Below are positions 26,801-61,163 of a DNA stretch of 64,000 bases, one piece after another. The stretch is from Pirellulaceae bacterium (lineage in GTDB: Bacteria > Planctomycetota > Planctomycetia > Pirellulales > Pirellulaceae): positions 1-64,000 of the forward strand of contig JADHUC010000008.1 of the NCBI GenBank assembly GCA_016784735.1, given 5' to 3'. Below the pieces are notes generated by a model that was given only the letters and a program-made list of their open reading frames with translations, was not told the origin of the DNA and ran no database searches. Made by a program: the position numbers and the translations under genes. Numbering within the stretch: the stretch's first letter is position 1; every line of letters starts with the position of its first letter.

Positions 26801-26937
26801 CACACCGTCGCGTTTGGGTCGCTCAACAGGGCCTCGTCAATCTTCACACTTACCATCTGCCCTTTGTCGGATGACAGGAACACGATCAGCAATAGAAGGA
26901 CTGCAACGACCAGGACAGCCAGGCCGGCGGCAATCAA
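23875..26937 (-). CDS. Membrane-anchored protein with three DUF1080 domains, probably split from the upstream kinase
   Basis: A 1020-residue protein. It has one transmembrane helix at residues 3-21, a PEGA-like strand set (about 43-98), a SnoaL-like fold (about 240-355) and three DUF1080 (3-keto-disaccharide hydrolase/ laminin-G-like) domains at about 374-574, 583-781 and 790-985, each starting EPGFVSLFDG.TL.GW. DUF1080 modules bind or cleave glucosides outside the cytoplasm. The only start is TTG at 26937, overlapping the kinase stop as TTGA. Codons just upstream in this frame read VRDGRSKTPLIAAG, matching [10 protein letters not shown] before the membrane helix of the paralogous kinase. So this is most likely the C-terminal half of a frameshifted kinase, although coupled translation cannot be excluded. 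Confidence 0.75.
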   Translation of the reverse strand: MIAAGLAVLVVAVLLLLIVFLSSDKGQMVSVKIDEALLSDPNATVWLDGEQMEIADVGDTIELKPGEHRYEIRRGDEVIVIRGFKVEEGEPFVLQISAEAHQSLMNLAQRKTELWLEKGVFGPKDDMYWEDSGVYAQDDQSSSVQFTSMDVVKELMPAFLDSIDGVALGPHSARCQINGSIGLIVWDGSVQFRTRDGQSAGSTGVGIAIPRDGQWKEIAGVMGDWRLGPSDRYDPSNDDHVALQRLLDQAGEAMVRKDAEAIRRLSHPDWRGFIEGDDGPQVITSEAYTQENLHGMAVDKHQHTITNVKIDGPLAISLSQLDQIVDGRPVIAQGHLNFYARTKEGWRFLAWVAGDWTSVLTGRKGQGTSSPPLEPGFVSLFDGETLNGWEGDKTHYFVQDGLLVSDFGEQMFLDKSGGNLLTSREYGDFTLRLEFRLQPGANSGVLIRSSSSGQPKRDGMEIQVIDDSDPEFAEILRAKPYQRTASLSPVAPAQSGKLEPVGSWNELEITCQGRQLTVRLNASTVLDVNLDSFQGKAANGQDCPGLSRIRGRIGLLGFASRRRVEYRNIRIKELTPVPNQQLEPGFVSLFDGKTLVGWETWRVTGRNMEDPRQVPGGWDVQDGMLVCTSDQAGWLKSSRHYGDFVLQLEYRLPTGGNSGIFIRCPAAGHLSMQGMEIQIIDEQGQAFSPVRQEMRTGAIAHVVGPPRLSSAAKPPGEWNSVEIRCEGDQVQVSLNGISVVDASMMEFEELRTRPRSGFIGLSNWQGQARGTAFRNIRIKELTTSSASPTEPGFVSLFDGKTLNGWHGDPLLWRVVDGTIVGNTKGVEFDVHSYLCTEKKYRDFVLKVKFKLHEGNSGIQFRSEQLPDYIAAGYQAEIGWASTRKRPNEAMSLFFQGLSRPAEWMDRGELLRLVNEKDWNEYVITCRGRHITIQLNGRTTVDFMEDQPAAEEGVIGFQIMRRPEMGFADMKVEFKDIRIKELADLQDEQTEAGSGIRRGGRSESPRNRGLRKQALENRGLR

Positions 26938-28808
26938 CGGCGTCTTCGAACGGCCATCGCGAACCGTTGCCGGTTCCCTTGCGCGCGGCGACCAGGTGCT
27001 TTGCGGCGGTATTTGTTCCGCCGGTTTATGCGTTCATACAGCAGTCGTGCCAGGCGATCGATCCACCAGTGGTTCGAGTGAGCGGGCAAGAGCATGCCTG
27101 CATCGTCAAAACGATGCTTTTCGTCGGGCCCGTACGTGCCGAGACGCTCGTACAGATCACGTGCCATGATGTTGCCTGGATCGATCTCTAGCAGATTCTC
27201 CAGCACGTCCTCCCGTAACCTCCCGAACTGGCGATCCCGGACCGCTTGCGTCATCCGCTCGTTCAGATCGTCCACCTTTGCCTGAAGTCCTTGGGCCTGC
27301 TTCAACAATTGATCGGCTTCTTCGGATCGTTTGTCCGGCGGAATAGCATCCAGCAGGTCGATTACGCCCGCGTAGTCCTGGTGGGCGAGCCGATCGATGG
27401 CTTCCGAGACCACCGTCGTCCTTTCTCCACGGGCCTCGTCCGGCGTGACAACGGAACGCTTCAGGCTGATGTCGGACGCATCCAAGACGGACGTCTCCGC
27501 GATACTGTCCGCAGCGCCGCTCTGGGTCTCGGCAACAGCAGTGGTTCTTGGAGGAATTGGAGGCGGTCCACCTTTCTCCGCGATGCCGCATCGGCTCAAC
27601 TGCTCGATGACTTCGGCCATCGACGCCTGCCGCTGGTCGGGCTCTTTCGCAAGCATTTGTTGACACACCGCATCCAAGACTTCGGGCACGTCCGATCGCG
27701 CCGCGCGGAGTGACGGGATCGGATCCTGGCGGTGGGCCAGGATCTTTTTCGTCATGGTATCGCCGCCGTAGGGAGCTTGGGCCGTCAGAAGGTAATACAG
27801 CGTGCAGCCCAGGCTGTAGATGTCCGTCCGACCGTCCACATTCCGTGTATCCAACGCTTGCTCGGGCGACATGAAGTCCAGCGTTCCCATCACTTGGCCC
27901 GTCTGTGTCAACGCGTCATCACTCGCTGTGCCGCTTTCCATGCGAGCCAGCCCCATGTCCAGCACCTTCACCACGCCTTCTGTGTCGACGAGGATATTCG
28001 ATGGCTTGATGTCTCGGTGAACGACACCGTGCCGGTGCGCGTATTCCAAGCCTCGAGCGGCCTGGATAATGTCATCCACAGCCGTCTGGAGGCTCAGTGG
28101 GCCTTGCTCCTTGACCAGCAATGCCAAATCCTGGCCCTGAACATGTTCCATCACCAGGAAATGGACGCCGTTGGCTTCATCCGCGTCGTGCGCCGTGACG
28201 ATGTTCACATGCGAGAGTTTTGCTGCAGCCTTGGCTTCACGTTGAAAGCGTTTCACCGCTTCGGGTATTCGCATGGCCGCGGTGGGAAGCATCTTCAACG
28301 CCACAACTCGTTCCATACGCCGATGCCGAGCCTTGAAGACCTGCCCCATGCCGCCACGGCCGATTTTGTCCAAAATGACATAGTTGCCGAGTACCAGCCC
28401 TCGTGTCTTCCCCTGATAGACGGCTCGAGCCTGGAATCGCGTCAGGTGCCCTTGACTGTGCAGTAGCTTGGCAAGATCGTCGGCAGCCTCAGGCTGCTCG
28501 TTCGCGGACAGTCCGTTGAGAATCGTCTGCAGTTGATCGTCGGTCATCAGCTCGGACGAGACCAAACCCTGAACGAACTGAGCCAACGTCACGCGGTGCG
28601 TTTCTTTCCGCCCGTATTCGCCCTGGACGGTCTCCAATTCGTCTCGCAATTGGCTTCGCTGTGGTTCCGGAATGTCGCCCAGGAACGCGTCGATTTGCGG
28701 AGACTTCCCGGCTTTCAGTTCGGCTTCAAACTGGCGGCAGATCTTGTCGACAGCCAACAGGTCTGAAACGGACAACGCATTCTCAGGGCTCTCAGGCACT
28801 TCGACCAT
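26934..28808 (-). CDS. Ser/Thr protein kinase, frameshifted before its membrane helix
   Basis: A 624-residue kinase. Residues 1-135 are a helical N-terminal region ([15 protein letters not shown]...). The kinase domain (141-405) has the P-loop [13 protein letters not shown] lysine, HRDIKPSNI catalytic loop and APE-equivalent SPEQA. The DFG motif reads DMG, as also in its neighbour, so it is family-typical and not a loss. Past residue 590 the frame gives a basic tail (NRRNKYRRKAPGRR) with no counterpart in the paralog, while the -1 frame stays open from 27033 and leads into the membrane helix of the DUF1080 protein. An indel between about 26940 and 27040 is therefore likely. ATG 28808 has GGAG nine bases upstream. 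Confidence 0.85.
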   Translation of the reverse strand: MVEVPESPENALSVSDLLAVDKICRQFEAELKAGKSPQIDAFLGDIPEPQRSQLRDELETVQGEYGRKETHRVTLAQFVQGLVSSELMTDDQLQTILNGLSANEQPEAADDLAKLLHSQGHLTRFQARAVYQGKTRGLVLGNYVILDKIGRGGMGQVFKARHRRMERVVALKMLPTAAMRIPEAVKRFQREAKAAAKLSHVNIVTAHDADEANGVHFLVMEHVQGQDLALLVKEQGPLSLQTAVDDIIQAARGLEYAHRHGVVHRDIKPSNILVDTEGVVKVLDMGLARMESGTASDDALTQTGQVMGTLDFMSPEQALDTRNVDGRTDIYSLGCTLYYLLTAQAPYGGDTMTKKILAHRQDPIPSLRAARSDVPEVLDAVCQQMLAKEPDQRQASMAEVIEQLSRCGIAEKGGPPPIPPRTTAVAETQSGAADSIAETSVLDASDISLKRSVVTPDEARGERTTVVSEAIDRLAHQDYAGVIDLLDAIPPDKRSEEADQLLKQAQGLQAKVDDLNERMTQAVRDRQFGRLREDVLENLLEIDPGNIMARDLYERLGTYGPDEKHRFDDAGMLLPAHSNHWWIDRLARLLYERINRRNKYRRKAPGRRAQGNRQRFAMAVRRRR

Positions 28809-28918
28809 AGGAAGGAACTCCGCGAGCAAACTGCCGGGGGAAGTATTAGCGAAGGAGCAGACGACCCTACACGCGCCAGCGGTTGGCTGACTGCTCGGTT
28901 GGATGGTTCGCGATCTTC

Positions 28919-29032: not shown

Positions 29033-31609
29033 TTACGATGACGAATCGTCAACGCGAGGTTGAAGGTCCCGCCTGGTTCCGGTCCTTCTACCCCGCTTTG
29101 CTCGATTAGAGCTTTCTCCCGGTGCATCGAAAGGAGCGATTTCCGCCGTCGGTTCTTCTTTCGGCCGTTCCGATGTGCCGATGCCCCATTCCTTTGCGAC
29201 GGTCTTGATCTCGGAGATTAGGGCCGGGTTTGTTTCGATACCTACGCTCGATAGATGGGCTTTGTCTGTGCGGCCATGTCCTCCGCGTCCATAACTGTCG
29301 AACACTGCACCACAAAGCTCGTACTCATCGACTATTTCACCGTAAGTACGTATCATGCCGGGGTCGCAGTCCGGCACCAAGCCAACATGGTTTCTCGAGT
29401 CGTTGGACCAGAAGAGTAATAACGGGCGGCCCTCGGCCCTCAGTTTCCAGACTGGCAGAGATCTGTTGTAGGAGGCTCTCCTTTTGGCGCTCTCTTCCCT
29501 GCTCACGGCACGGACCAGAACGACGTCGACGGCAGGGGGAATTCGAAGATCCAGCGGTTCCGACTTGGCTATCCTACCTACTCCCACATATTGAGCCCAG
29601 AGCTCAACATCATGCGGCAAAGACTCCTTTAACATCTGTCCGCACTGCCTAAGCTCATCCGGCCCCATCCGATCAATGTGTAGATCCATGCAGCAGACGG
29701 CGTTGATGCGATACTGTTGGGCCAGGGGGATAACTCGATTTGTCACGATGTCGAGGTTTCCCTCGGCCAATTCGAAGCTAAGGACAACCTTCAAACCAGA
29801 GGCTTGTGCGGCCTCGATCACAGGTTCTGGTTTGGGATGAATTGCGCAGACGAGAACCACATTCGTGTACTCGCTGAACTCCGAGAACTCCACGGGTTCA
29901 TGTACCAGATATCCCAGCCAACGTGTGGGCGAATCTGCGCGCGCAGATTTGGCTTCCGAGACATTGGCTTCTTTCTCTTTGCCTTGCCCAACTGAGATTC
30001 TCGCTTCTGACGCTGACTCGCTGTTTTCAGAAACCAACATATCCTCAGACGTGTTCTTTTTGAAAACTAGGCCAAACAGAATCACAACAAGACATGCCAA
30101 TGCTGCAATGGCCAGACCGATGGCAAGAGGAACCGGAGGCACCTTCGGACGGCCGTCTCGCTTGACGGCCGCATGGGCTTGATGTGCCAGCCCTTTGATC
30201 TCTCCCGAAACCGCGGCTGGCTTGTCCGCGCGGGCTTCATCTGGTGTAACGACCGTATGCTTCAGCCCTATGTCGGGCGGGGCTGTGGTGGAAGTCTCGG
30301 CCGCTTCGTCCGAAACCATGTCGAGCGTGTCGTCGATAATAGCCGTCTTTGGAGGAATTGGGGGCGGGCCGCCGCTGTCTGCGATGGCGAATTGGTTCAA
30401 CTGCCTGATGACCTCGGCCATGGAAGCCTGCCGAACATCAGGTTCCTTGGCCAGCATCTGTTGAAATACGGCCTCCAATTCTTCGGGCACGTCCGACCGC
30501 GCCGCGCGGAGTGACGGGATCGGATCCTGGCGATGCGCCAGGATCTTCTTAGTCATCGTATCGCCGCCGTAAGGCACCTGTGCGGTCAGCAAGTAATACA
30601 ACGTGCAGCCCAGACTGTAGATATCGGCTCGACCATCCGCACTTCGTGTATCGAGCGCCTGCTCGGGCGACATGAAATCCAACGTTCCCATCACTTGGCC
30701 GGTGTGCGTCAGCGCGTCTTCGCTCTTTGTCGCGTCATCCACACGAGCCAGTCCCATGTCCAGCACCTTGATCACGCCCTCCGCATCCACCAAGATGTTC
30801 GAAGGCTTGATGTCGCGGTGGACGACACCATGTTGGTGCGCGTATTGCAGCCCTTGCGCAGATTGTGCGATGTAGTCCACGGCCGTGGCGACGGTCAATG
30901 GGCCCTGCTCCTTGACCAGCGATGCCAGGTCCTGGCCTTCGACACATTCCATCACCAGGAAATGGATGCCCCCCGCATCATCCGCATCATACGCCCTGAC
31001 GATGTTCGCGTGCGAGAGTTTGGCCGCCGCCTTCGCCTCGCGGTGAAATCGTTTCACCGCTTCGGGATGCTTCATAGCCGAGGTGGGCAGCATTTTGAGC
31101 GCCACTACCCGTTCCATACGGCAATGCTGTGCTTTGAAAACCTGCCCCATGCCGCCGCGGCCTAGCTTGTCCAAGATGACATAATTGCCGAGTACCAGCC
31201 CTCGAGTTTTGCCTTGATAGAGAGCTCTGGCCTGGAATGACGTCAGGTGGCCATGACGATGGAGCAGCTTGGCAAACTGGTCGGCCGTCTCAGGCCGCTC
31301 GTCCGTGGACAAGTCATTCAAGACCGTCTGCACCTGGTCCTCTGTCATCACCCCGGACGAGACCAGATTCTGGATAAATTGAACCAACGTCACGCGCTGC
31401 TCGGACTGCTGCCCGTGTTCCCGCTGGATGGTCTCCAACTCGGCCCGCAATTGGCTACGCTGCGGCTCCAGCGTGTCGCCCAGGAATGCTTCGATTTGGG
31501 GACCCTTCCCGGCCTTCAACTCCGCCTCGAACTGGCGGCAGATCTTGTCGATCGCCAACAGGCCCGAAACCGTGAATTCGTTTTGCGGGTTCCCGTGTAC
31601 CTCGGCCAT
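29033..31609 (-). CDS. Ser/Thr kinase with extracytoplasmic TIM-barrel-like domain
   Basis: An 858-residue transmembrane kinase, paralogous over its first 500 residues to the kinase at 26934-28808. The kinase domain spans 141-405 ([12 protein letters not shown] lysine, [12 protein letters not shown] for DFG, SPEQA). A membrane helix lies at about 493-516, after [13 protein letters not shown]. The outer domain, about 555-830, has alternating strands and helices typical of a glycosidase-like TIM barrel ([72 protein letters not shown]). A sensor for a polysaccharide is plausible but not shown. Transcription is divergent from the FHA-kinase gene; GGAG precedes ATG 31609. Confidence 0.85.
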
Positions 31610-31719
31610 ATTTGAAAACTCCAACCATGGACTGGGAATTACAGGCAATCAACAGAATCGCATTATTGCTGCGATTCCGTCTGTGCACAACCTACTTGGG
31701 TGGATGCCTGGTGACTTGT

Positions 31720-31731: not shown

Positions 31732-31849
31732 CTGCTGTACTATTTTCCAAGACGGTCGCACGTCGGCTTATACCGAGGGCTGGTGCTGAGGTACGTGCGC
31801 GGTCGGCGAGTCCTGTTTGACGCGATCCTTTTTGCCGGTTGACGATGCC

Positions 31850-34120
31850 ATGCCTTGGCCTATGGCCTCCGATTACAGTGCGATCGTACAGCAACCGCGT
31901 TTCGCGTTTCGCGATCCGGTGCTTCAAGCTTGTAGTATCGAGCGCAACTCGCTCGGGCAACCGCTCACGAGAGCCGGCGCGTTTGCCGTGGTTTACAAAG
32001 GGATCGACGCGGAAGGCAAGGCTTGGGCGCTGCGAGCTTTTACCACCGAATCGCAGCAGCGTCGGGAGCACTACGAGCACATCGCGTCGCATCTACAGTC
32101 GCGAAAGCCGCGTTGCTTGGTCGACTTCGAGTATCGCGATTCGTCCATCCGATCGGCCAGCGACGGCAAGTGGTATCCGTTGGTTGCAATGGATTGGGTC
32201 CAAGGCATGATTCTGTTCTCGTGGGTCCAGTCCAAATGCCGAAAGGGCAAAGGGGCGTCGATCGCCAAAGGCGCCCGCCATTGGCTGAAACTGGTCAAGG
32301 AACTGAGTAAAGCCGAAATCGCGCACGGCGATCTGCAACACGCCAACATCCTGGTGACTCCACAGGGGCGGCTTAAGCTGGTCGATTACGACGGCATGTG
32401 CGTGCCGGGGCTGGTCGGCCGAAGGAATATCGAGATTGGCGTCCGCCCCTACCAGCATCCGCAGCGTAATGAATCCACCTTGCTGTCCACCAGCCTGGAT
32501 GACTTCTCCGCTCTGGCAATCTACACGGCTCTGCGCGCCTTGGCGGCCGACATTTCGCTGTGGGACAAGCACGTGGAACAGCCGGGCTACGACAAACTGT
32601 TGTTCCGCAGCGAGGATTTCCTGGATCGAGAACAGTCGCCCCTGTACCGAGATCTAATGAACTCTCCAGACTCCGATGTCCGTACGCTGGCCGCGCAGTT
32701 GTTCACTTTCGCCCGCGGAAGTATCGACGACGTGCCGCCGTTGAGTCAACTGGTCGCCGCCGAGCCGGGAGGCAAACGCGCAGCGGTATCTGCTATTCCG
32801 AACGTGCCTTGGCAATCCGATATGCCGGAGCCGCAGCCGGGTGACAAACCCGCGTCACGGGTCATCCTGGACGTTACAGCCGGACCGCTTCAGGGCGAGA
32901 CTCTCCATATCGAGCAACATGACACCTTGCTGTTCGGCCGCGGTGCGGACTGCCGTATCCGAGTCGCCGACGACCGCCGGATCTCGCGACATCAGTTCCT
33001 CCTGGAAGTGATTCCGCCTCATGCTTGTCTGCGCGATCTGGGAAGTCGCAACGGGACTTATGTGAACGGCGTCAAGTACGGTGGCCGAGATGAGCCGAAG
33101 CGGCCAGCCGAATCACCGGCAGACGAGGTCTTCGTAGAGGTAGAATTGAAGCACGGCGATCAGATCATTGCTGGCGAGACCACTGTGCTGCTGCGCATAG
33201 AGGGACTGTCGCTGCCGTCTGCTGCAAAAGAGTCGGACAAGGACTCTTCGGATGCACTAGTCGTACCGGAGGAAACAACCGAACGGCTGGTTGACCGCCT
33301 GGAAGTCGGTGAACAGATCGGAACGGGAACACTGGGGGTTGTCTACAAGGTGGAAACCGGACAGGACCAACAAGAACTGGTCCTGAAGGTTGTGCATCCC
33401 ACGACAGAGATCGGCAAGACAAACCGGGCCGAACTCCTTCGTGCATTCGCAAGCTACCAGTCGCTTCGTCACGCGAACATCGTAGGACTGGTGGAACACG
33501 GCACGTTGCGGCGAGCCTTTTACTTCCTTGCGGAATACTGCAACGAAGGCAGCCTGGATCAGTGGATCGAGGAACGCGGCGGCAAACTGATTCTGGGTCA
33601 GGCGCGGCCGCTGATGTTCCAGTGCCTGGACGGTTTGGATCATGCCCATCGTCAAGGGTTGGTGCACGGAGACCTGAAACCTCAGAGCATCCTATTGCAC
33701 CGCGAGAATCGCAAACGAATTGGACGGATTGCCGATTTCGGTCTAGCTCGGATTCTAGAGGACTCAGGATCGTCCGGCATGACGACAACCGGGAAGTCCT
33801 GGAAGAACTTCCATTTCCTGCCCCGCGAGCGACTCGTCAGTCCCCGCGAAAGCGATCTTCGCAGCGACCAATGGAGCATGGCTGCGGTGTTCTACCACAT
33901 GCTGACTGGGCGGTTTCCCCGCGATCTTGCCGGAGGCGACCCGATTGCCGAAATCCTCCATTCCGAGACGGTGCCCATTCGCGATCGCAACTCGACGGTT
34001 CCGCAGCCTGTGGCCCGTGTGATCGATCGGGCCTTGTCGTCGGATCCGGAAAAGAGGTTCCGCGATGCCGCTGAAATGAAATCGCATCTCAAACGCGCGT
34101 TTGCTCGGGTCCGACGTTGA
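31850..34120 (+). CDS. Kinase-FHA-kinase fusion protein
   Basis: A 756-residue protein with no signal peptide or membrane helix. Kinase-like domain 1 (about 35-290) has AGAFAVVYKG, an Arg where the VAIK lysine is expected (WALRAF), HGDLQHANI and VDYDG in place of HRD and DFG. This pattern recalls YegI-like kinases and may be weak or inactive. The FHA domain (about 338-450) is intact with FGRGADCRI, RISRHQF and GSRNGTYVNG for phosphothreonine binding. Kinase domain 2 (about 484-750) has GTGTLGVVYK, VLKVV lysine, HGDLKPQSI and ADFGLAR. The Arg of HRD is Gly in both. ATG 31850 lacks a clear ribosome site. A fragment of its C-terminus recurs at 39845-40060. Confidence 0.82.
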   Translation: MPWPMASDYSAIVQQPRFAFRDPVLQACSIERNSLGQPLTRAGAFAVVYKGIDAEGKAWALRAFTTESQQRREHYEHIASHLQSRKPRCLVDFEYRDSSIRSASDGKWYPLVAMDWVQGMILFSWVQSKCRKGKGASIAKGARHWLKLVKELSKAEIAHGDLQHANILVTPQGRLKLVDYDGMCVPGLVGRRNIEIGVRPYQHPQRNESTLLSTSLDDFSALAIYTALRALAADISLWDKHVEQPGYDKLLFRSEDFLDREQSPLYRDLMNSPDSDVRTLAAQLFTFARGSIDDVPPLSQLVAAEPGGKRAAVSAIPNVPWQSDMPEPQPGDKPASRVILDVTAGPLQGETLHIEQHDTLLFGRGADCRIRVADDRRISRHQFLLEVIPPHACLRDLGSRNGTYVNGVKYGGRDEPKRPAESPADEVFVEVELKHGDQIIAGETTVLLRIEGLSLPSAAKESDKDSSDALVVPEETTERLVDRLEVGEQIGTGTLGVVYKVETGQDQQELVLKVVHPTTEIGKTNRAELLRAFASYQSLRHANIVGLVEHGTLRRAFYFLAEYCNEGSLDQWIEERGGKLILGQARPLMFQCLDGLDHAHRQGLVHGDLKPQSILLHRENRKRIGRIADFGLARILEDSGSSGMTTTGKSWKNFHFLPRERLVSPRESDLRSDQWSMAAVFYHMLTGRFPRDLAGGDPIAEILHSETVPIRDRNSTVPQPVARVIDRALSSDPEKRFRDAAEMKSHLKRAFARVRR

Positions 34121-34207
34121 TGCGCAAGTGCTTGCGATGCTGAAAGCCGATTTCGCGCGGCTGTTCGTGGCCGCTGGTGATGGTCGAACCGTTGTCCAGA
34201 GGGGCGG

Positions 34208-34366
34208 CGGGACTCGTTCAAGTTCCTCCTCCGTGTTGCCCATATCAGTCTTACTCGGCGGGATGAGCACCAGCTTCATGCCGGTCGAGTTCGTGGTTCC
34301 CACAGCAATGCCAAGATGCTCTGCCCATGCGCGATGTCGAAAGGAGCGATGGCAACGGGTGGTGCA
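34208..34366 (-). pseudogene. Decayed SUMF1 module remnant
   Basis: On the minus strand, PPVAIAPFDIAHGQSILAL lies in one frame and NSTGMKLVLIPPSKTDMGN with TEEELERVP in another. These correspond to the PQPAIAPFNTDQAKEHQLA and LTMVLIPPGEFMMGSTAEE starts of the SUMF1 repeats in the intact 1501-residue kinase just upstream. The fragment is frameshifted and ends abruptly, so it appears to be a third SUMF1 repeat that has decayed. It lies just past the stop of the kinase gene. Confidence 0.7.
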
Positions 34367-34395
34367 TCGAACCGGCAGGGTGAGTTGGAGGCAGG

Positions 34396-37300
34396 TTATC
34401 CGGGATGCGGCTTCCCCGGGGCGGATTGCGTTTCTTTGGTCGTCGCTTCCGGCGATTGTGGAGCTGCCCCCCGAGCTTCAGCGATCCGGCCTGGATCGAT
34501 CTGCACGGCCAACCGCAGTCCGAGGCCATCGTTGCGAAATCCCGGCAAACCGTGGTTCCGATCCGCCGACCGGCAGTTCCTCGCGTCGGCGTACCAGCCG
34601 CCGCCGCGATACACGCGATGGGAGCCACTCGGTGGGCCCCTAGGATCGTCCGGCAACGACCGTGTGTAGTAGTCCCACGAGTACCAATCCGCGCACCATT
34701 CCCACACGTGCCCATGCATGTCGTGAACACCGAACCCGTTGGGACGCAACTTGCCGACAGGATGCGTCTCGCCGCCATTATTCGGGGTAAACCATGCGTA
34801 CTCCTGCATTACGGCCTCGTTATTGCCACAGTGCCACAGCGTTGTCGTTCCCGCGCGGCACGCGTACTCCCACTGTGCCTCGGTTGGTAATGCGCACTCC
34901 AGGTCCTGGTTCTTCCAAGACCCGTTCACTCTGGCCAGGAACTGCTGAACGTCGTCCCAGCTCACTTGTTCAACCGGATGCGATGCGTCGCCCGTGAACC
35001 GGGATGGATTCTTCCCCATCATGGCCTCCCACTGGGCCTGCGTTACCTCGCATTTTCCCAGGTAGAACGGTCGTGTGATGCGCACCCGATGCTGCGGCCC
35101 TTCGCCCGGAATCCGCTCGACGCACCATTCGTCGTCCGCAGCCTTAGCCTCTTCGAGGAAGCGAGCCTGCTCTTCTGCCGTCGACCCCATCATGAACTCG
35201 CCGGGCGGGATCAGAACCATTGTCAGCTTCTCATCGCCTGACAACTCGAAGTCTTGCTCGACCGGCACACCCAGATAGTCAGCCCAGGCCAGCTGGTGTT
35301 CCTTGGCCTGATCGGTGTTGAATGGTGCGATGGCTGGCTGCGGGGCATCGGGTGGAAGCTGCCTCTTGGCAGGTGGACCAGCCGAGGTAGTTCCAGGAAC
35401 GACTGGCTTGCTTTCAGGCGTCGTGTCCGGAATCTCGCAGGCCACGCGGAAGCCAGTGTCATTGACGCGGAAACGGGGCCCGCTGCTGTTCCGATAAGCC
35501 GACCGACAGAGTATTCCAGGGTTGTATGCGCTCCCGCCGCGGCGTACTCGGTCCAAGCCCTTCGTAGGTCCGCCGGGGTCGGTCCGCAGTGATGTCACGC
35601 CGGAATCGCTCTCGTCCCAATCCGCACACCATTCCCACACATTGCCGTGCATGTCTTGGAGACCATATCCGTTAGGACGCAACTCCCCAACCGGATGCGT
35701 TCGGCCCTCCCCATTCCTATCGAACCAGGCAGCGTCCTGCAATGCTCCCTCGTCGTCACCGCAATGCCAGGCCGTCGCGGTCCCCGCACGACAGGCGTAT
35801 TCCCACTGCGCCTGGGTCGGCAGGCGATACCGGCCGCCCTGCTTCGTTGACAGCCACTTGCAGAACGCTTCCGCGTCATTCCAGGACACGTTCACGACGG
35901 GATGTTCGTCCGTTTGTGGGAAGCCAAGATCGGCACTCCAGACGAACCGTGGATCTTGAGCGTAACGGCCGTCAAGGTAGCCGAATCCACCTTTCTCGTC
36001 CCGTTCGGCTTCGGTCGTGTACCCAGTCTCCTGGACGAACAGGCGGAATTGAGATCGAGTCACCTCATGGCGGCTCAACCAGAATGGCCTGGTGATCCGC
36101 ACCTGGTGCTGCGAATACTCCTTGCCGATTTGGTCGACAGCACCCTCATAATTCACTGCTTCCGGCGCTTTCCGAAACCGTGTCTTTTCTTTGTCGCTCG
36201 AGCCCATCATGAACTCACCGGGCGGGATCAGCATCATTGTCAGCTTCTCACCGCCGGGCAACTCGAAGTCTCGCTCGACCGGTACGCCCAGGTAGTCAGC
36301 CCAGGCTTTCTGGTGTTGCTTGGCCTGCGCGGCGTTGAATGGGGCAACGGCCAGAGGCGGCTGGCCAGAGGCCGTGGGCGCGATACCCGCTGGTTTTCGA
36401 TGGCAAGCGATCTCGTCTATCCATAGTGTATTTTCGTCCCCGTCCCGAGAGCCCATGTAGCCGAGGCTGAATTCAAATACCTTGCGCAAGTCGAGGTGCG
36501 ATAGTTTCTCCGGCTCCAAGTCAATGGTTACTTTCTTCCACTCCTTGGCACAGTCGAAACCAAAGATGCTCCATCGTACATCGCTTTCGCCGATGGGCTT
36601 GGCGTGTATCATGAATGCTGCAGAGCGAGGCCGAATTCCCTTCACGTAGAATGAAACAGAATCGTACGGAGTGAGGTCGAAGAACTGCTCACGTGACCCC
36701 CGCAACACAACGTTGGCCTGGACCCAAACGTCCTTTTTCGTCTGGTAGGACCAACGCAACGCCTGCGCAGAACCCAATGCCCCCGGGGAGTCGAGAATCG
36801 TACGGGTTGAGATACCATCATAGTCGCTAGCGTAATCCAGAAGCGGGTCTGGAAACAACGCCGTGGTCGGAGCGTCGAAGTTCACAAGGAGAAGCGAGTC
36901 CGGGTCATCGGCTGCCTTGGCCGGAATTGTCGGCGGTTCCCACCTCGCCCGGATCGGCATGTTCCCTCCTGACACAACCGTGACATCCTCGGCGTAAACC
37001 TCGATTCCATTCTTCTCGACCCGGACTCGGCGTTTCCCAGGGTCGACGCTAAAGACAATCTGCCCGTCCTTTCCCTTGCTCTCGACAAGGACCTTACCTT
37101 CGTCGCCGAGAACCTGAACGATTGCGTCGGGGTCGTCGATTTCGACGATCAACGTGCCGTCAGGAGTGGTCAGCGAGATCATCAGGCCCCAGAGGAGCAG
37201 GGGAAAGAGTAAACCGGCGGCCACCGCCAGCCACTTCCAAGAGTTTGGGAACCACCGGCTGCCTGACAGACGACGGCGGAGCGCGATGAGAATTGATGCT

Positions 37301-38901
37301 TTTGGTAGTGAGACTGAGATGGAGTCGTCACTCAGGGCCCCCTGACCCTGCGCTCGCTCCGCAGTGGCTGGGGTGATTCCGGGGCCTGTTTCTGCGTCGT
37401 CTCTTGGCTCCTGTGCCAATACGACCGAAGCGTTTTCGTCTGAGCCCTTTTCGTCCGCTTGGGCGACCGCGGCCGACGGCGCGTCCGGCTTGGAGTGAGA
37501 CGTTTCGCTGGTGGTACTCTTCAGGTAGCCCTTTAGTTCATCGGCGAACTGACGCATGGACGCGTAGCGGTCTTCCGAGTCCTTGGCCATTGCCTTCAGA
37601 CAAATCGCCTCCAAGCGTGGATCGAGATCGGGACGATTGACCGAGGGCGACGCGGGCTCCTGAGTGGCGATCTGCACCAACACGGCCGTTACCGGCCCGT
37701 TGAAAGGTCGCTCGCCGCAAAGCAACTCGTATAGAATCACCCCCAGACTGAAGATATCCGATGCCGGACCGGTTGTCTCGATGTCGCCCCGCGCCTGCTC
37801 CGGCGACATGTAAGCCGGTGTGCCCAACAGTTGGCCGTTGTGGGTAATCTGCGATTCGCTTGCAGTACTGCGCTGCGCCAGGCCGAAGTCCATGATCACC
37901 GGCTCGCCCCGCCGGTCGATCATGATGTTCGAAGGCTTTAGATCCCGGTGGACGATGCCCTTTTGGTGAGCTTCCTCCAGCGCCAAGGCCAACTTACGCA
38001 CGGCCAGTGCCGCCTTGCGCTGGTCAATCTCTTTCTCGCGCTCGATCACCGAGCGAAGGTCCTTGCCCGCGATATAGGCCATCACGATATAGTGCTGACC
38101 GTCCTGGTCGCCGATTTCGTACACCGGGCAGATGTTCGGATGACGCAGGTTCGCCGCAGCACGCGCCTCGCGCAGAAAGCGTTTGAAGTGCTCCTCCGTC
38201 TGGAACATTTCCTTGCGCGGGACTTTCAGAGCGACTTCGCGATCCAATCGCGAGTCATACGCGCGGTGTACCGTGCCGAAAGCCCCCTGTCCCAGTACTT
38301 CGATCAGCCGGAAGTGACCGATCGAATCCATCTCCGCAGGCGACGGATCGGCTCCGGCATCAGACGACTCCAGCGCGTCCCCGTCAGGTCGCCAAACGAC
38401 CGTCTCGCCGAGGCTCATGGCAGATGTTTCGACCGAACATGCTTCGAGTGGGATTGCAGAGACCTGGACCGTTTGGTCGCAGTGCGGGCACTTGCCCCTT
38501 CGGCCCGCATGCTTCGCCTTGACACGGAAGTTGTGGCCATTGGGACAAGTCACTGGGATCGAAGTGCGCTGCCGAGCAGCCTGCGGTGGAACGGCACACG
38601 CGTCATCAGGCGATTGCTCGAAGTTCAACCGGATCAGGTCAGCGTCGTTGGGAAAACGGGCAAGAAACTCCTCTGGATTCGGGTTCTCCCCGCTCATCTC
38701 TCGGTAGGCAATCTCCACCGCCAGCAACTCGGCAAGCAGTGCGCGACGTTCAGGGCCTTCCGGGTTTCCCAAGTACTGTTCGACTTGGGGACACTCTCCA
38801 TTTCGCCAAGCGTCCTCAAAGCGACTACAGATCTCGTCTACTCGCTGCTCCACCGCGATCGGAATGGACTCTTTCCCGGGAACGTGGGCATCTGGCTTCA
38901 T
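34396..38901 (-). CDS. Giant Ser/Thr kinase with carbohydrate-binding-like and two SUMF1 domains
   Basis: A 1501-residue transmembrane kinase. Features in order: a helical N-terminus, a four-Cys zinc ribbon (CPNGHNF...CPHCDQ, about 119-141), a kinase domain (195-460) with GQGAFG, VALK, HRDLKPSNI (318-326), DFG (338-340) and SPEQA, a linker, a membrane helix (about 557-575), a PEGA-like strand set, a jelly-roll domain like complex-I-intermediate/CBM folds (about 670-835), and two SUMF1 domains (about 885-1130 and 1190-1450). SUMF1 repeats end in CRSA.R....LGF/GF, with a single Cys where formylglycine enzymes have two, so they are likely ligand-binding. An ECF sigma factor lies immediately upstream on the same strand. 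AGAGGAG precedes the ATG. Confidence 0.88.
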   Translation of the reverse strand: MKPDAHVPGKESIPIAVEQRVDEICSRFEDAWRNGECPQVEQYLGNPEGPERRALLAELLAVEIAYREMSGENPNPEEFLARFPNDADLIRLNFEQSPDDACAVPPQAARQRTSIPVTCPNGHNFRVKAKHAGRRGKCPHCDQTVQVSAIPLEACSVETSAMSLGETVVWRPDGDALESSDAGADPSPAEMDSIGHFRLIEVLGQGAFGTVHRAYDSRLDREVALKVPRKEMFQTEEHFKRFLREARAAANLRHPNICPVYEIGDQDGQHYIVMAYIAGKDLRSVIEREKEIDQRKAALAVRKLALALEEAHQKGIVHRDLKPSNIMIDRRGEPVIMDFGLAQRSTASESQITHNGQLLGTPAYMSPEQARGDIETTGPASDIFSLGVILYELLCGERPFNGPVTAVLVQIATQEPASPSVNRPDLDPRLEAICLKAMAKDSEDRYASMRQFADELKGYLKSTTSETSHSKPDAPSAAVAQADEKGSDENASVVLAQEPRDDAETGPGITPATAERAQGQGALSDDSISVSLPKASILIALRRRLSGSRWFPNSWKWLAVAAGLLFPLLLWGLMISLTTPDGTLIVEIDDPDAIVQVLGDEGKVLVESKGKDGQIVFSVDPGKRRVRVEKNGIEVYAEDVTVVSGGNMPIRARWEPPTIPAKAADDPDSLLLVNFDAPTTALFPDPLLDYASDYDGISTRTILDSPGALGSAQALRWSYQTKKDVWVQANVVLRGSREQFFDLTPYDSVSFYVKGIRPRSAAFMIHAKPIGESDVRWSIFGFDCAKEWKKVTIDLEPEKLSHLDLRKVFEFSLGYMGSRDGDENTLWIDEIACHRKPAGIAPTASGQPPLAVAPFNAAQAKQHQKAWADYLGVPVERDFELPGGEKLTMMLIPPGEFMMGSSDKEKTRFRKAPEAVNYEGAVDQIGKEYSQHQVRITRPFWLSRHEVTRSQFRLFVQETGYTTEAERDEKGGFGYLDGRYAQDPRFVWSADLGFPQTDEHPVVNVSWNDAEAFCKWLSTKQGGRYRLPTQAQWEYACRAGTATAWHCGDDEGALQDAAWFDRNGEGRTHPVGELRPNGYGLQDMHGNVWEWCADWDESDSGVTSLRTDPGGPTKGLDRVRRGGSAYNPGILCRSAYRNSSGPRFRVNDTGFRVACEIPDTTPESKPVVPGTTSAGPPAKRQLPPDAPQPAIAPFNTDQAKEHQLAWADYLGVPVEQDFELSGDEKLTMVLIPPGEFMMGSTAEEQARFLEEAKAADDEWCVERIPGEGPQHRVRITRPFYLGKCEVTQAQWEAMMGKNPSRFTGDASHPVEQVSWDDVQQFLARVNGSWKNQDLECALPTEAQWEYACRAGTTTLWHCGNNEAVMQEYAWFTPNNGGETHPVGKLRPNGFGVHDMHGHVWEWCADWYSWDYYTRSLPDDPRGPPSGSHRVYRGGGWYADARNCRSADRNHGLPGFRNDGLGLRLAVQIDPGRIAEARGAAPQSPEATTKETQSAPGKPHPG

Positions 38902-39040
38902 GGGGACTCCTCTGCAGATCTAAGGTCTGCCTGCCGGTGCGACAGTTGTCTTGATGACGCGTGTCAATGCTACCAGTATGTATCTCCACAAAGTTCGCCG
39001 CCACCCGACACATTCTTGCTGACAAACTCAGTACATGCTT

Positions 39041-39652
39041 TCAGGTCGGGGCTTCGTCGGACCATAACCTTCGGATCAGCCTCAACTTGCGCTCGACTGT
39101 GCGCGTTACCACTCCCAGACGATGGCCGATTTCCTTGTTGGTGTATCCCTCCATTTTCCAGACCGCGATTTCACGGAGACTCTTTTCGGGCAGCCGATCC
39201 AGAAGCCGTTGATACTGGTCGACCACCGAGACGGCAAATTCGGGCGTCGGCGCGTGGCCGACGACCTGATCGATGCCACCGCCCTCGGTCGCCGTTCCGG
39301 CGCCGATAAGGGCTGATTCACCGTGTACTCTCCCTCCGCCACGTTTCTGGCGAAGATCGTGATGATGCTGGTCAATCGCCTTGCGTGACGCGACAACGAT
39401 CAGCACTTGCCACAAGTCATCTCGATCGTCGAGTCGCGGAAAACGGCCAAGACGAGTGCCTTCCACAAAACTGTTGAACGCACTCAATGCCACGTCTTCT
39501 TCGTCCCAAGCTCGCCTGGGGTGCTCGCCAAGCTTTCGGTGGCAGACTCGGACGAGCTGTGTAAAGTAGCGTTCCCAAAGCGCCTGAACAGCCGCATCAT
39601 CACCCGCCTTCGCCAAAGTTAGCCAATGAGTAACAGAGCCTTCTGCCGTCAT
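39041..39652 (-). CDS. ECF-family RNA polymerase sigma factor
   Basis: A 203-residue sigma-70-family protein of the planctomycete ECF type. The sigma2 region is residues 25-90 (LWERYFTQLVRVCHRKLG, WDEEDVALSAFNSFVEG, DLWQVLIVVASRKAIDQ). The sigma4 region is at the C-terminus (PEKSLREIAVWKMEGYTNKE, then IGHRLGVVTRTVERKLRLIR), a helix-turn-helix that contacts the -35. It is transcribed toward the giant kinase, 139 bases away, so kinase-controlled sigma activity is a likely arrangement known from such ECF groups. No anti-sigma factor is present. No ribosome site is obvious before the ATG. Confidence 0.88.
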   Translation of the reverse strand: MTAEGSVTHWLTLAKAGDDAAVQALWERYFTQLVRVCHRKLGEHPRRAWDEEDVALSAFNSFVEGTRLGRFPRLDDRDDLWQVLIVVASRKAIDQHHHDLRQKRGGGRVHGESALIGAGTATEGGGIDQVVGHAPTPEFAVSVVDQYQRLLDRLPEKSLREIAVWKMEGYTNKEIGHRLGVVTRTVERKLRLIRRLWSDEAPT

Positions 39653-39844
39653 CTCAATGATCCGTGCAAAGGATGGGAAAACGTCTCGCGTGCTGACTCA
39701 CTGTCCCAGGCCTCGTTACTCGGTCCAGCGCGATCAACTTCATCCACCGGACAAAAGCCCGTAATGTAGAATCGCGGAACGGGAAACGATTCTAACCGGT
39801 CAGACCCAGCTAGAGAAGCAGAAGCCCAATGCCAGGAACACAAT

Positions 39845-40060
39845 ATGCTGACAGGACAGTTTCCCCCGATTCCTACGGGCGTGACCCCATCTGTCGACCT
39901 TCAGTCAGAGGCCGTGTACATCCGCAATCACAACTCCAAGGTTCCCCAACCCGTGGCCCGAGTGGATGATCGAGCATTGTCATCGGATCCAGAAAGGTTC
40001 CGCGACGCCGCTCAGATGAAATCGCATCTCAAACGCGCCTTCGCAAAGGTCCGACGCTAA
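39845..40060 (+). pseudogene. Fragment of the C-terminal kinase lobe of the kinase-FHA-kinase gene
   Basis: The 71 codons starting MLTGQFPPIPTG match the end of the second kinase domain of the gene at 31850-34120 (MLTGRFPRDLAGG...). The shared tail is VPQPVARV.DRALSSDPE.RFRDAA and MKSHLKRAFA.VRR, with one codon deleted (EKRF to ERF). No upstream catalytic region exists, so it is a dead fragment. It sits upstream of the divergently oriented sigma gene, in the same plus orientation as the parent. Confidence 0.82.
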
Positions 40061-40175
40061 GACGCGTCCGCGACGACGGTGTTCCATTGTTCTGCGCAAC
40101 GCGGGCGCGGTACAATGCGCACGGTGCAGCGCAAATCGGGCTATGGACGCACAAACCAGCATAAGAGAACATCCT

Positions 40176-40574
40176 ATGAGCAAAGCAGCCAGCGGAGTCC
40201 CCGAAGAGAAACTGGCATTGTACGAGAAGCTTGTGGCAACCAATCCGGGTATTGAGCGGAAGGGTGCCACCATGCCGTATACATCGTTGAACGGCCACAT
40301 GTTCAGCTTCCTGACCAAGACCGGGACGTTGGCGCTCCGGCTTCCGGACGATGAGCGGGATGCATTCATCAAGAAATACAAGACCCAGCTCTGCGAGCAA
40401 CACGGGAGAATCATGAGGGAGTACGTTGAAGTCCCGGATGCCCTGCTGAAGAAGACGCGGGAATTGAAGAAGTACTTCGACCTGAGTTTCGCCTATGTGG
40501 GCTCCCTCAAGCCAAAGCCGACGAAGCGGGCCAAGAAGAAGACCACGAAGAAGAAATCGGCGAAAGAACGATAA
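40176..40574 (+). CDS. Small TfoX/YjbR-like protein with basic tail
   Basis: A 132-residue cytosolic protein. The central part (residues 10-100) contains GATMPYTSLNGHMFSFLTK, TLALRLPDDERDAFIKKY and SFAYVGSLKP, a strand-helix pattern like TfoX N-terminal/MmcQ-like domains. The tail is a lysine-rich stretch (PTKRAKKKTTKKKSAKER) that may bind nucleic acid. Start at 40176 (MSKAASG) is preferred over 40143. No regulator partner or operon mate is evident. Confidence 0.6.
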   Translation: MSKAASGVPEEKLALYEKLVATNPGIERKGATMPYTSLNGHMFSFLTKTGTLALRLPDDERDAFIKKYKTQLCEQHGRIMREYVEVPDALLKKTRELKKYFDLSFAYVGSLKPKPTKRAKKKTTKKKSAKER

Positions 40575-40609
40575 CGTTGCAGGTGATAGCCTCGAACTTC
40601 ACTGGAAGC

Positions 40610-47911: not shown

Positions 47912-50422
47912 CTATCCCGTAAGGACCCCAATGTCGATCGGGGCGAAGCCATCGAGAAAGTCGTTGACGACGGCCAGTTTCCATACCAGCGTAACGGATT
48001 CCACCGCGGGATACCCGAGGGTTTCTTCGTACCCCATTGCCGCCTGCAACACCGTGCACCAGTCTTCCATTCGGTCTGTCTCACCGTAACTCCCCGCGTA
48101 GTCGTTGGGGTTGCCCGAGTAATAGAAGTGCAGACGCCTGAATCGACGCCAGTAATCCCTACCATCGGGATGATGATCCGCGTCGCGAGACGAGTCCCAA
48201 TTGTGGCCGATTTCGTGGATGACTGCTGAGCGGGCCCACAGGTTGTCGTCGTCGTCGTTTTCGTTCCAGTCCCTTATTTGGATCTTCCGCTTCCAGGCGT
48301 TCGCAGATGGCGACCACCATGTCTCGTTACGTCCACGCCAATCGACGCTGGAAGCCGCTTTGACGAATTTGAGCGGCCCTCGACACTTCGTGTCCTTCAG
48401 GATGCGCATCGAACCGGTCCGCTCGTACAATTGCGCGAATGCGATATCGAGCTGTTCGACCTCCAGATCCGTCCAGCGGCGGCCGGAGTTGCTGATGCTG
48501 ATCTCGACGTCGGTGTGGTCGCGGAACAGCATTTCGTCACCGCCTCCCCTCAGATAGCGATCATCGCCCAGGCGGCCCCCGTAAAGACGGTCGAGCACGT
48601 TATCGGGGCCACCATAAAGGCCGTCATTCCCGGAACCGCCAAACAGGTCGTCCTCGCCCCAACCGCCAAGCAATCGGTCGTTACCCTCATTGCCGTGGAG
48701 GAAATCGTCATCATCTCCGCCGAACAGCGTATCATGGCCATCTTCTCCATATAGATGATCCGCACCATGCCCACCGATCAGCCTGTCATCTCCGCTGACG
48801 GTGTCGTTATCGTCGCCTCCCCACAGACTGTCGTCACCGCGTTCGCCGTCGATGGTGTCGTTGCCAGCGCCGCCCCAGACTTCGTCGTTGCCATAGCCTG
48901 CGTCGATGATGTCATCGCCACCGTTGCCCCAGACGTCGTCGTGGCCGAAGTAGGCATCGATCACGTCTGCGCCGCCTCCACCGTAGATGGTGTCGTCGCC
49001 GAAACCACCGTTGATAGAATCGCGGTCGGCTCCGCCGTAGAGTGTGTCGTTGCCGTATCCACCACTGATTGTGTCATCGCCATCATCGCCGGATATGGTA
49101 TCACGGTCCCTTCCACCCACGATGGAGTCGTGACCGTCACCGCCCCGCAGGTCATCGATGCCTGTTCCTCCGTAGATCGTGTCGTTGTCGGCGTCACCAA
49201 AAATGTGGTCATCGCCGCTGTTGCCGTACAAACGGTCGTTGCCCGAGCCGCCATGGATCGTGTCGTCGCCCACATCGCCCCAAATGTGATCGATCCCTGG
49301 GCTGCCTTGCACGGTGTCGTTACCTAGGCCTCCCCGGACGTAATGGACCGATCGGTAGGTAGAACCTCCGCAGTCGATCGTATCGTTTCCGCCGCCGCCG
49401 TAGATCCGGTCGTCACCGTAATCGCCATTGATGGTATCGTGACCGTCGCCGCCGTGAAGGCGGTCGTTGTCGTTGCCGCCGTGCAACACGTCGTTGCCAA
49501 CGTCGCCCCACAGTTGATCTGCCCCTCCTTGGCCGAGGATTTCATCATCTCCACCGCCGCCATGAATGGTGTCCGCCTGACCGCCACCAGCGATCCTATC
49601 TCCCGGAACACCGTGGTTGTAGGGAATCCAGCGGCCGCTGTGGAGCACGAAAATCAGTTCGTCACCACCGTTGATTGTGTCGCTGCCGCTGCCCCCATCG
49701 ATCGTGTCGCCGCCAAGGTTCCACGCCTCGAGGGCCACCGTACCGGGATGGTAGGAGAAGTAGCCCAGAATTTCGTTTCCGCCATGAATCGTGTCGGCTC
49801 CAGCGTTTCCCTCGATCACGTCGCGTCCTGACCCACCGTACAGTGTGTCATTGTCGTCGTCGCCATGCAGATGGTCGTCTCCGCTGTTGCCATAGATGCG
49901 GTCGTTGCCCCATTGGCCGTAGATCCAATCATTGCCGCCATCTCCGTAGATTTGATCCTCGCCGCCTCCACCGTACACGGTGTCCGAGTCTGCGCCGCCC
50001 TGGACGTAGTCCGCACCACCACGTCCATAGATAGTGTCGTCGCCGGGTCCACCGTGGATAATGTCGGCACTTCCGCCGCCCCGGATCGTGTCGTTGTCCG
50101 CGCCGGCGCTGACGGTACATGGCGTGCTTGTGAAGTTGCTGAACTGATCATCCCCGTCGTGACCGTTGAAGACGATTCTGCTGACACTCGAACTGCGATA
50201 GTCCCACGTCCTTCCGTTCAGATCGGCGTAGAGCCGGCTTCCCACCAAACGAACCTCAGACGTGTCGGCCTCGTCGGTGCCTTCGATGGTCAACGTACTG
50301 CCGGTCAAGTTGACCGGTGACAGGGCGAGCAATCTTCGGTTTTCCAACGATTCGAAGGCCAGTCTTCTGCTCTGACTCCGTCGTCGCTGCTCCTTGCGGT
50401 TCTTTCTGTTGATTCTTGGCAT
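47912..50422 (-). CDS. Exported RTX-repeat protein with zincin motif
   Basis: An 836-residue secreted protein. The N-terminus (RRLAFESLENRRLLALS) is the sorting-type motif of large planctomycete exported proteins. Residues about 90-620 are RTX nonapeptide repeats GGxGxDxhx, which fold as calcium-binding beta-rolls; DNDTIYGG-type units occur dozens of times. The C-terminal 200 residues form a distinct domain with the zinc-protease motif HEIGHNW (736-742) and a downstream DYAGSYGETDRMEDW, whose Glu could be the third zinc ligand. A secreted calcium-dependent metalloprotease is likely. Start 50422 follows AAAGGAAAG. Its terminator is at 47841. Confidence 0.8.
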   Translation of the reverse strand: MPRINRKNRKEQRRRSQSRRLAFESLENRRLLALSPVNLTGSTLTIEGTDEADTSEVRLVGSRLYADLNGRTWDYRSSSVSRIVFNGHDGDDQFSNFTSTPCTVSAGADNDTIRGGGSADIIHGGPGDDTIYGRGGADYVQGGADSDTVYGGGGEDQIYGDGGNDWIYGQWGNDRIYGNSGDDHLHGDDDNDTLYGGSGRDVIEGNAGADTIHGGNEILGYFSYHPGTVALEAWNLGGDTIDGGSGSDTINGGDELIFVLHSGRWIPYNHGVPGDRIAGGGQADTIHGGGGDDEILGQGGADQLWGDVGNDVLHGGNDNDRLHGGDGHDTINGDYGDDRIYGGGGNDTIDCGGSTYRSVHYVRGGLGNDTVQGSPGIDHIWGDVGDDTIHGGSGNDRLYGNSGDDHIFGDADNDTIYGGTGIDDLRGGDGHDSIVGGRDRDTISGDDGDDTISGGYGNDTLYGGADRDSINGGFGDDTIYGGGGADVIDAYFGHDDVWGNGGDDIIDAGYGNDEVWGGAGNDTIDGERGDDSLWGGDDNDTVSGDDRLIGGHGADHLYGEDGHDTLFGGDDDDFLHGNEGNDRLLGGWGEDDLFGGSGNDGLYGGPDNVLDRLYGGRLGDDRYLRGGGDEMLFRDHTDVEISISNSGRRWTDLEVEQLDIAFAQLYERTGSMRILKDTKCRGPLKFVKAASSVDWRGRNETWWSPSANAWKRKIQIRDWNENDDDDNLWARSAVIHEIGHNWDSSRDADHHPDGRDYWRRFRRLHFYYSGNPNDYAGSYGETDRMEDWCTVLQAAMGYEETLGYPAVESVTLVWKLAVVNDFLDGFAPIDIGVLTG

Positions 50423-50678
50423 GATTCTTTCCTTTCCAGTCAATTTGCCGAGCCGGTCCCTACCCGTTGGCCTCGCAAGGTGTATTGCCAGTTAGGCTCA
50501 GGAGTGGCCAAAATTCCCGAAAAACCTTCTTGTCCGATCCTCCATTCGCGCACCTGGTGCGGACCCGGAAGAGAATTCGTCTTCTTCTGGCCGCCTTCCG
50601 GCCACAACGGCAATCGACATTGCAGTGGCAGGTAGTCTGAACCCGTTTGCAGGATCACTAATTCGGAGGGACAAGACA

Positions 50679-60056: not shown

Positions 60057-60103
60057 TATACTGGTCGCCGATCCGGCTGAGCGGTCGGAGGCGAGTTAAG
60101 ACT

Positions 60104-60168
60104 GGTTCCCAAGCTCCGGCTTGGGAACCAAGGGAACGGACAGTTAGTTCCCAAGCCGGAGCTTGGGA
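60104..60168. repeat. Pair of palindromes in inverted orientation (BIME-like)
   Basis: The first palindrome (60104-60129) is perfect: GGTTCCCAAGC, loop TCCG, and its complement. The second (60147-60168) has the same arms around CGGA, so it is the reverse copy. Such REP pairs often mark ends of transcription units. The pair lies between the oxidoreductase and a HEAT-repeat gene. Confidence 0.75.
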
Positions 60169-60227
60169 AACAGAAGAAACAACAGGACCATCGCACCACC
60201 AAGGCTAATCGAGAAAAGGAGAAAAGC

Positions 60228-61019: not shown

Positions 61020-61029
61020 GCGGCGAGCA

Positions 61030-61110
61030 AAAAGGGGTCGGGAGTCGTTTTCGTGTAACCGTCAACCATATGAAACGGCGCAGGCCCGAAAACGACTCCC
61101 GACCCCTTTT
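61030..61110. repeat. Perfect 24-bp inverted repeat
   Basis: Arms 61030-61053 and 61087-61110 are perfect complements, starting AAAAGGGGTCGGG and ending CCCGACCCCTTTT, around a 33-base loop. The T-rich end makes it a possible terminator after the first HEAT gene, and its form fits the REP elements seen across planctomycetes. Confidence 0.75.
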
Positions 61111-61163
61111 CGCACAAAGACGCTGGTAATGTCGAGTAGACGATGCACGTAGGGAGGAAACGT

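Follow-up and report, generated by a model that had tools for sequence, protein, structure and literature searches.

Genes and repeats at the locus

The window, by which we mean the whole 64,000-nucleotide stretch of DNA analysed here, belongs to a planctomycete assembly of 11.66 Mb in 450 contigs and has a GC content of 58.7%. Within its kinase gene cluster lies a gene, designated K1 (31817 to 34120, forward strand), whose 767-amino-acid product carries a kinase-like domain, an FHA domain and a C-terminal Ser/Thr kinase (Pfam Pkinase and FHA); the ATG at 31850 is its probable conserved start. Head-to-head with K1 is a second kinase gene identified with Pfam (29033 to 31648, reverse strand), an arrangement that is kept on the contig of one relative, L046. 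This neighbour has a tandem duplicate (26934 to 28829, reverse strand), which is 77% identical to it across 1.4 kb in a comparison of the window with itself. The similarity lies in the N-terminal and kinase parts of the two proteins, and their C-terminal parts have diverged strongly.

To the right of K1, on the reverse strand, are a gene for a giant Ser/Thr kinase of 1501 amino acids with two FGE-sulfatase (SUMF1-like) domains (34396 to 38901; Pfam) and, 139 bp upstream of it and co-directional, a gene for an ECF sigma factor (39041 to 39652; Pfam Sigma70_ECF, PF07638, E = 4.9e-40), the two forming an ECF sigma factor-STPK pair. The FGE regions of the giant kinase are partly duplicated from one another (35181-35334 with 36198-36351, and 34681-34887 with 35614-35820), and one of these internally duplicated stretches is 86% identical across 154 bp. 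The 5' side of the sigma gene (39653 to 39839) is free of K1 homology by shuffle comparison. It is followed by the fragment that is the subject of this analysis (39840 to 40059, forward strand), and the first gene to the right of that fragment encodes a small TfoX-N-like protein (40143 to 40574, forward strand), recognised by a weak Pfam match under the curated cut-off.

The fragment is a direct repeat of the 3' end of K1. In a BLASTN comparison of the window with itself, 33899-34116 aligned with 39845-40056 in direct orientation (219 columns, 76.3% identical, E = 1.5e-36); this pair of repeats ranked third in strength within the window. Smith-Waterman alignment extended the match to 33894-34125 and 39840-40067, with a score of 226 against a best score of 37 in 200 shuffles. 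The left copy is thus the K1 3' end (33894 to 34119, forward strand), and the right copy, on these alignments together with the codon alignment and tree described below, is a decayed version of it, 72 codons long and with its own stop. Homology runs out at the stop codons, TGA at 34118-34120 in K1 and TAA at 40059-40061 in the fragment: the DNA 3' of the two stops (34121-34400 against 40060-40300) does not align above shuffles, nor does the 188 bp between the sigma gene and the fragment (39653-39840) align with K1. In the whole assembly, DNA matches to the 3' part of K1 occur in these two places only. The initial annotation, which described a kinase-FHA-kinase gene ending at 34120, a degraded copy of its end in the same orientation at 39845-40060 and a sigma factor with a giant kinase between the copies, was accurate to within a few bases, and the Pfam assignments bear out the genes that it named. 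Its word "degraded" is apt, since the fragment differs from K1 by a -1/+1 frameshift patch and two 3-base (whole-codon) deletions.

Relationship and decay of the fragment

Full-length relatives of K1, with 52-66% amino acid identity, were found in five metagenome-assembled genomes (MAGs). Complete K1 genes are rare: across 241 genomes searched within the family, five others have one, seemingly the same five as the contig search had found. We aligned by codon, over 72 codons, the fragment, the K1 of the window and the K1 genes of the five relatives (L046, L047, L049, L050 and G009), and built trees from the alignment. Compared codon by codon, the fragment is 74% identical in nucleotide sequence to the window's K1 and 53-59% identical to the other five. 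It groups with the window's K1 in the tree, on a branch with SH-aLRT and bootstrap support of 91 and 89 from DNA and 84 and 80 from protein, indicating that it is a lineage-specific duplicate. The copy was most likely made in this lineage after its split from the nearest relative compared.

The two copies have since evolved differently. The branch leading to the fragment (0.30) is about five times longer than that leading to the window's K1 (0.066). When substitutions were polarised with the outgroups, those on the K1 branch fell at codon positions 1, 2 and 3 in the numbers 1, 3 and 10, a departure from uniformity (p = 0.004) that indicates constraint; on the fragment branch the numbers were 9, 9 and 14, which is indistinguishable from an unconstrained sequence (p = 0.14). 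Maximum likelihood branch lengths for positions 1 and 2 combined and for position 3 were 0.028 and 0.35 for K1, against 0.17 and 0.34 for the fragment, an intermediate ratio that leaves room for a period under constraint. The fragment thus has the marks of a pseudogene: same-direction homology with loss of constraint, and greater proximity to the K1 of its own genome than to those of relatives. On a plain reading of these sequences it would be what is left of a duplicate gene, a stub that is dead or dying and has lost most of its codon constraint. Because the evidence on rates comes from the 72 codons alone, a copy cut at birth and a copy that lived as a gene and later died are not separable; both would fit, and an early death is possible.

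K1 and the fragment differ at 31 of 72 third positions (0.43), and third-position divergence in the kinase part of the tandem duplicates at 26934 and 29033 is 0.32-0.45, indicating that kinase genes in the cluster were being duplicated side by side at about the time when K1 was copied. Both duplications might have sprung from one tandem duplication of the two divergently oriented genes, K1 and its kinase neighbour; we set this aside, as the resulting gene order would fit only if a third copy or a rearrangement is assumed as well.

The sigma factor-kinase pair in this genome and its relatives

Pairs of this kind recur in the genome. Seven of the eleven related sigma genes examined, counting that of the window, have a co-directional kinase gene directly downstream; the pairs outside the window number at least six (on contigs C312, C3, C219, C262, C369 and C335), and the sigma genes lacking such a kinase are on C67, C185, C423 and C3, where this is a second sigma gene beside the paired one. 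A DNA search of the genome found no K1 fragment at any of these other places. On C312 (L092 5079-5330), about 1.4 kb from the intact pair, a second sigma gene is truncated and has one internal TGA; it too is a signalling-gene duplicate in decay. For the giant kinase itself, a search of 149 genomes of the family at E = 1e-150 yielded no full-length relative, and its FGE part was matched in one genome.

Planctomycete sigma factor-kinase pairs are known and are thought to act through phosphorylation (PMC8999054, PMC8103513). The STPK-linked planctomycete groups ECF59, ECF61, ECF62 and ECF217 are listed under that mode of regulation (PMC8999054), and the ECF43 pairs EcfP/PknT and EcfK/PknS are further examples (PMC8103513, PMC13147305). 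The pair in the window resembles all of these in having the sigma gene directly upstream of a co-directional Ser/Thr kinase gene, and differs from the pairs compared in the two FGE-sulfatase domains of its kinase. By analogy with the other planctomycete pairs, the kinase would most likely sense a signal and regulate the neighbouring sigma factor by phosphorylation. In ECF43 the acidic, DAED-like sigma2.2 motif is replaced by uncharged residues with a phosphorylated Thr. The corresponding region of the window's sigma factor, DEEDVALSAF, keeps the acidic DEED, as do nearly all of the aligned paralogues from the same genome; charge restoration as in ECF43 is therefore not directly transferable. 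Relative to the consensus DxxDxxQE, the window's sequence has Ser in place of Glu, and this Ser is a candidate phosphorylation site. Matches of this sigma factor to NCBIfam models were under the cut-offs.

The neighbourhoods of K1 in other genomes bear on how the arrangement arose, with the qualification that the K1-bearing relatives are distant and their contigs short; that of L050 stops about 460 bp past K1, which leaves four readable flanks. K1 in L046 is head-to-head with a relative of the 29033-31648 kinase; to its right are short ORFs and then a gene for pyruvate kinase. A recombinase-like ORF suspected by eye after K1 in this genome was not confirmed. In L047 and L049, RecD-, RecB- and RecC-like genes, so read by eye, begin within about 10 bp after K1, and in G009 K1 is followed by other genes, with a lone FGE-sulfatase domain further along. 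Neither the sigma factor-kinase pair nor a K1 fragment is present beyond the K1 stop codon in any of the four, so the synteny comparison that the initial annotation had proposed shows K1 without the adjacent pair in every relative that can be read. The pair therefore probably came to this site in the lineage of the window, as the initial annotation supposed, although the DNA to the right of K1 is variable in general. Among the K1-bearing relatives we found none with an intact second K1 or with an empty site.

A relative of the TfoX-like protein, 69% identical, occurs in a single genome from another family, and the gene at 40577 has one distant relative among 149 genomes of its own family. The genome of the other family was considered as a possible case of synteny, since a lone sigma gene lies 1.2 kb from its TfoX gene; that sigma gene shows 37% identity and has no kinase behind it, there is no K1 fragment, and we judged the proximity coincidental.

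Origin of the arrangement and other features of the window

The initial annotation interpreted the locus as a module gained or shuffled by recombination between duplicated kinase genes. Part of this holds: the sister relationship in the tree supports an origin of the fragment from a duplicated K1, and gain or shuffling at this site is likely, given that four relatives have no such pair downstream of K1. The direct copies are not supported as the means of gain, as they are old (31 of 72 third positions differ) and share only the last 226 bp of the gene, the boundaries carry neither inverted ends, a second direct repeat nor an integrase, and six similar pairs stand elsewhere in the genome with no fragment. 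We consider it likely that the right copy is all that survives, as a 3' stub, of a duplicated and dead kinase-FHA-kinase gene, whose 5' part was lost when, or before, an ordinary sigma factor-kinase pair arrived. Derivation of the fragment from another kinase gene, since deleted, is one of the outcomes that the initial annotation had named as undercutting its argument from the bracketing copies. The inferred sequence of events is that this lineage made a second copy of K1, in direct orientation, within a cluster that also tandem-duplicated its neighbour; that the right-hand copy had lost its 5' nine tenths by the time the ECF sigma factor-kinase pair came to lie there; and that the stub has been shedding codon constraint ever since. 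Tandem gene duplication is among the processes reported for the expansion of Ser/Thr kinases in Planctomycetota and myxobacteria (PMC11032199). The cases treated there are likewise lineage-specific kinase duplications, some in immediate proximity; here, unlike those cases, all that remains of one copy is a 220-bp stub, separated from the other copy by a gene pair.

One competing explanation invokes a mobile piece of DNA. In integrative elements that use gene 3' ends, whether tRNA-type or protein-gene att sites, the cargo is flanked by a direct repeat of the gene's 3' end. The pair could have come in on a circular or integrating DNA that carried a K1 3' end, with homologous or site-specific recombination in the gene end rebuilding K1 on the left and leaving the displaced end to decay on the right. 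The geometry agrees with this (an intact gene, cargo, and a displaced 3' end in direct orientation finishing at a stop codon), as do the constraint on the left copy with decay of the right and the different K1 3' flank in each separate lineage of relatives. We nonetheless think it unlikely, because the marks of such an element are lacking. The segment from 34121 to 39839 holds the sigma and kinase genes only, with no recombinase, integrase or transposase gene in or beside it; its two edges share no inverted or further direct repeats above shuffles; and its GC and GC3 equal those of the flanks. In place of near-identical att repeats, a short conserved att core or terminal inverted repeats there is a 226-bp repeat at 76% identity with gaps. 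The left-hand copy, at the 3' end of K1, does not look foreign either, as the divergence of its last codons from the K1 of L046 is not above that of other variable parts of the gene, and similar pairs occur elsewhere in the genome without a K1 end. That the pair is a transferable cassette, inserted at a kinase gene 3' end by recombination with the gene end rebuilt, we regard as highly improbable; were it so, the ends of kinase genes would be docking sites for new signalling modules.

Two explanations without an element were also weighed. A larger tandem duplication might have encompassed K1 and a neighbouring stretch with the sigma factor-kinase pair, later deletions taking one of the pairs and the greater part of one K1. 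The neighbouring kinase, tandem-duplicated at about equal divergence, is in keeping with such an event, but beside the fragment there is neither a further copy nor a remnant of the pair or of other K1-flanking DNA, and in the four relatives that can be read K1 has no such pair next to it; this too appears improbable. Alternatively, some 220 bp might have been duplicated or copied ectopically in an unrelated, partial event, the pair lying between the copies by accident; this would account for a sharply bounded match that has flanks without homology and takes in only the last tenth of the gene. The direct orientation, the short distance and the end exactly at the stop suit a decayed tandem copy at least equally well, and the sharp limits fit such a copy because noncoding flanks of that age could no longer be recognised. 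We consider the ectopic event very unlikely. Most simply, the feature reflects ordinary genome turnover with no special mobile module. Under the preferred reading of a dead K1 duplicate, the locus is a small case of turnover in the planctomycete kinase repertoire, in which a gene was duplicated, one copy was lost and another signalling pair came to occupy the same place, and no new mechanism is required.

Several other features of the window were recorded. A palindromic element at 61027-61113 (AAAAAGGGGTCGGGAGTCGTTTTCG ... CGAAAACGACTCCCGACCCCTTTT) had no match in Rfam. Copies or half-copies of it occur at six other places in the assembly (C262, C434, C11, C439, C449 and C283). G009 has it too, with one copy directly after its K1 gene; the palindrome resembles a dispersed, REP-like sequence common to more than one genus. 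Two more inverted repeats, at 1683-1772 and 60102-60173, are 83-86% self-complementary across 72-93 bp. The gene at 47912-50443 on the reverse strand encodes a protein of 843 amino acids that contains 18 stretches of RTX calcium-binding repeats, together with a weak planctomycete extracellular motif.
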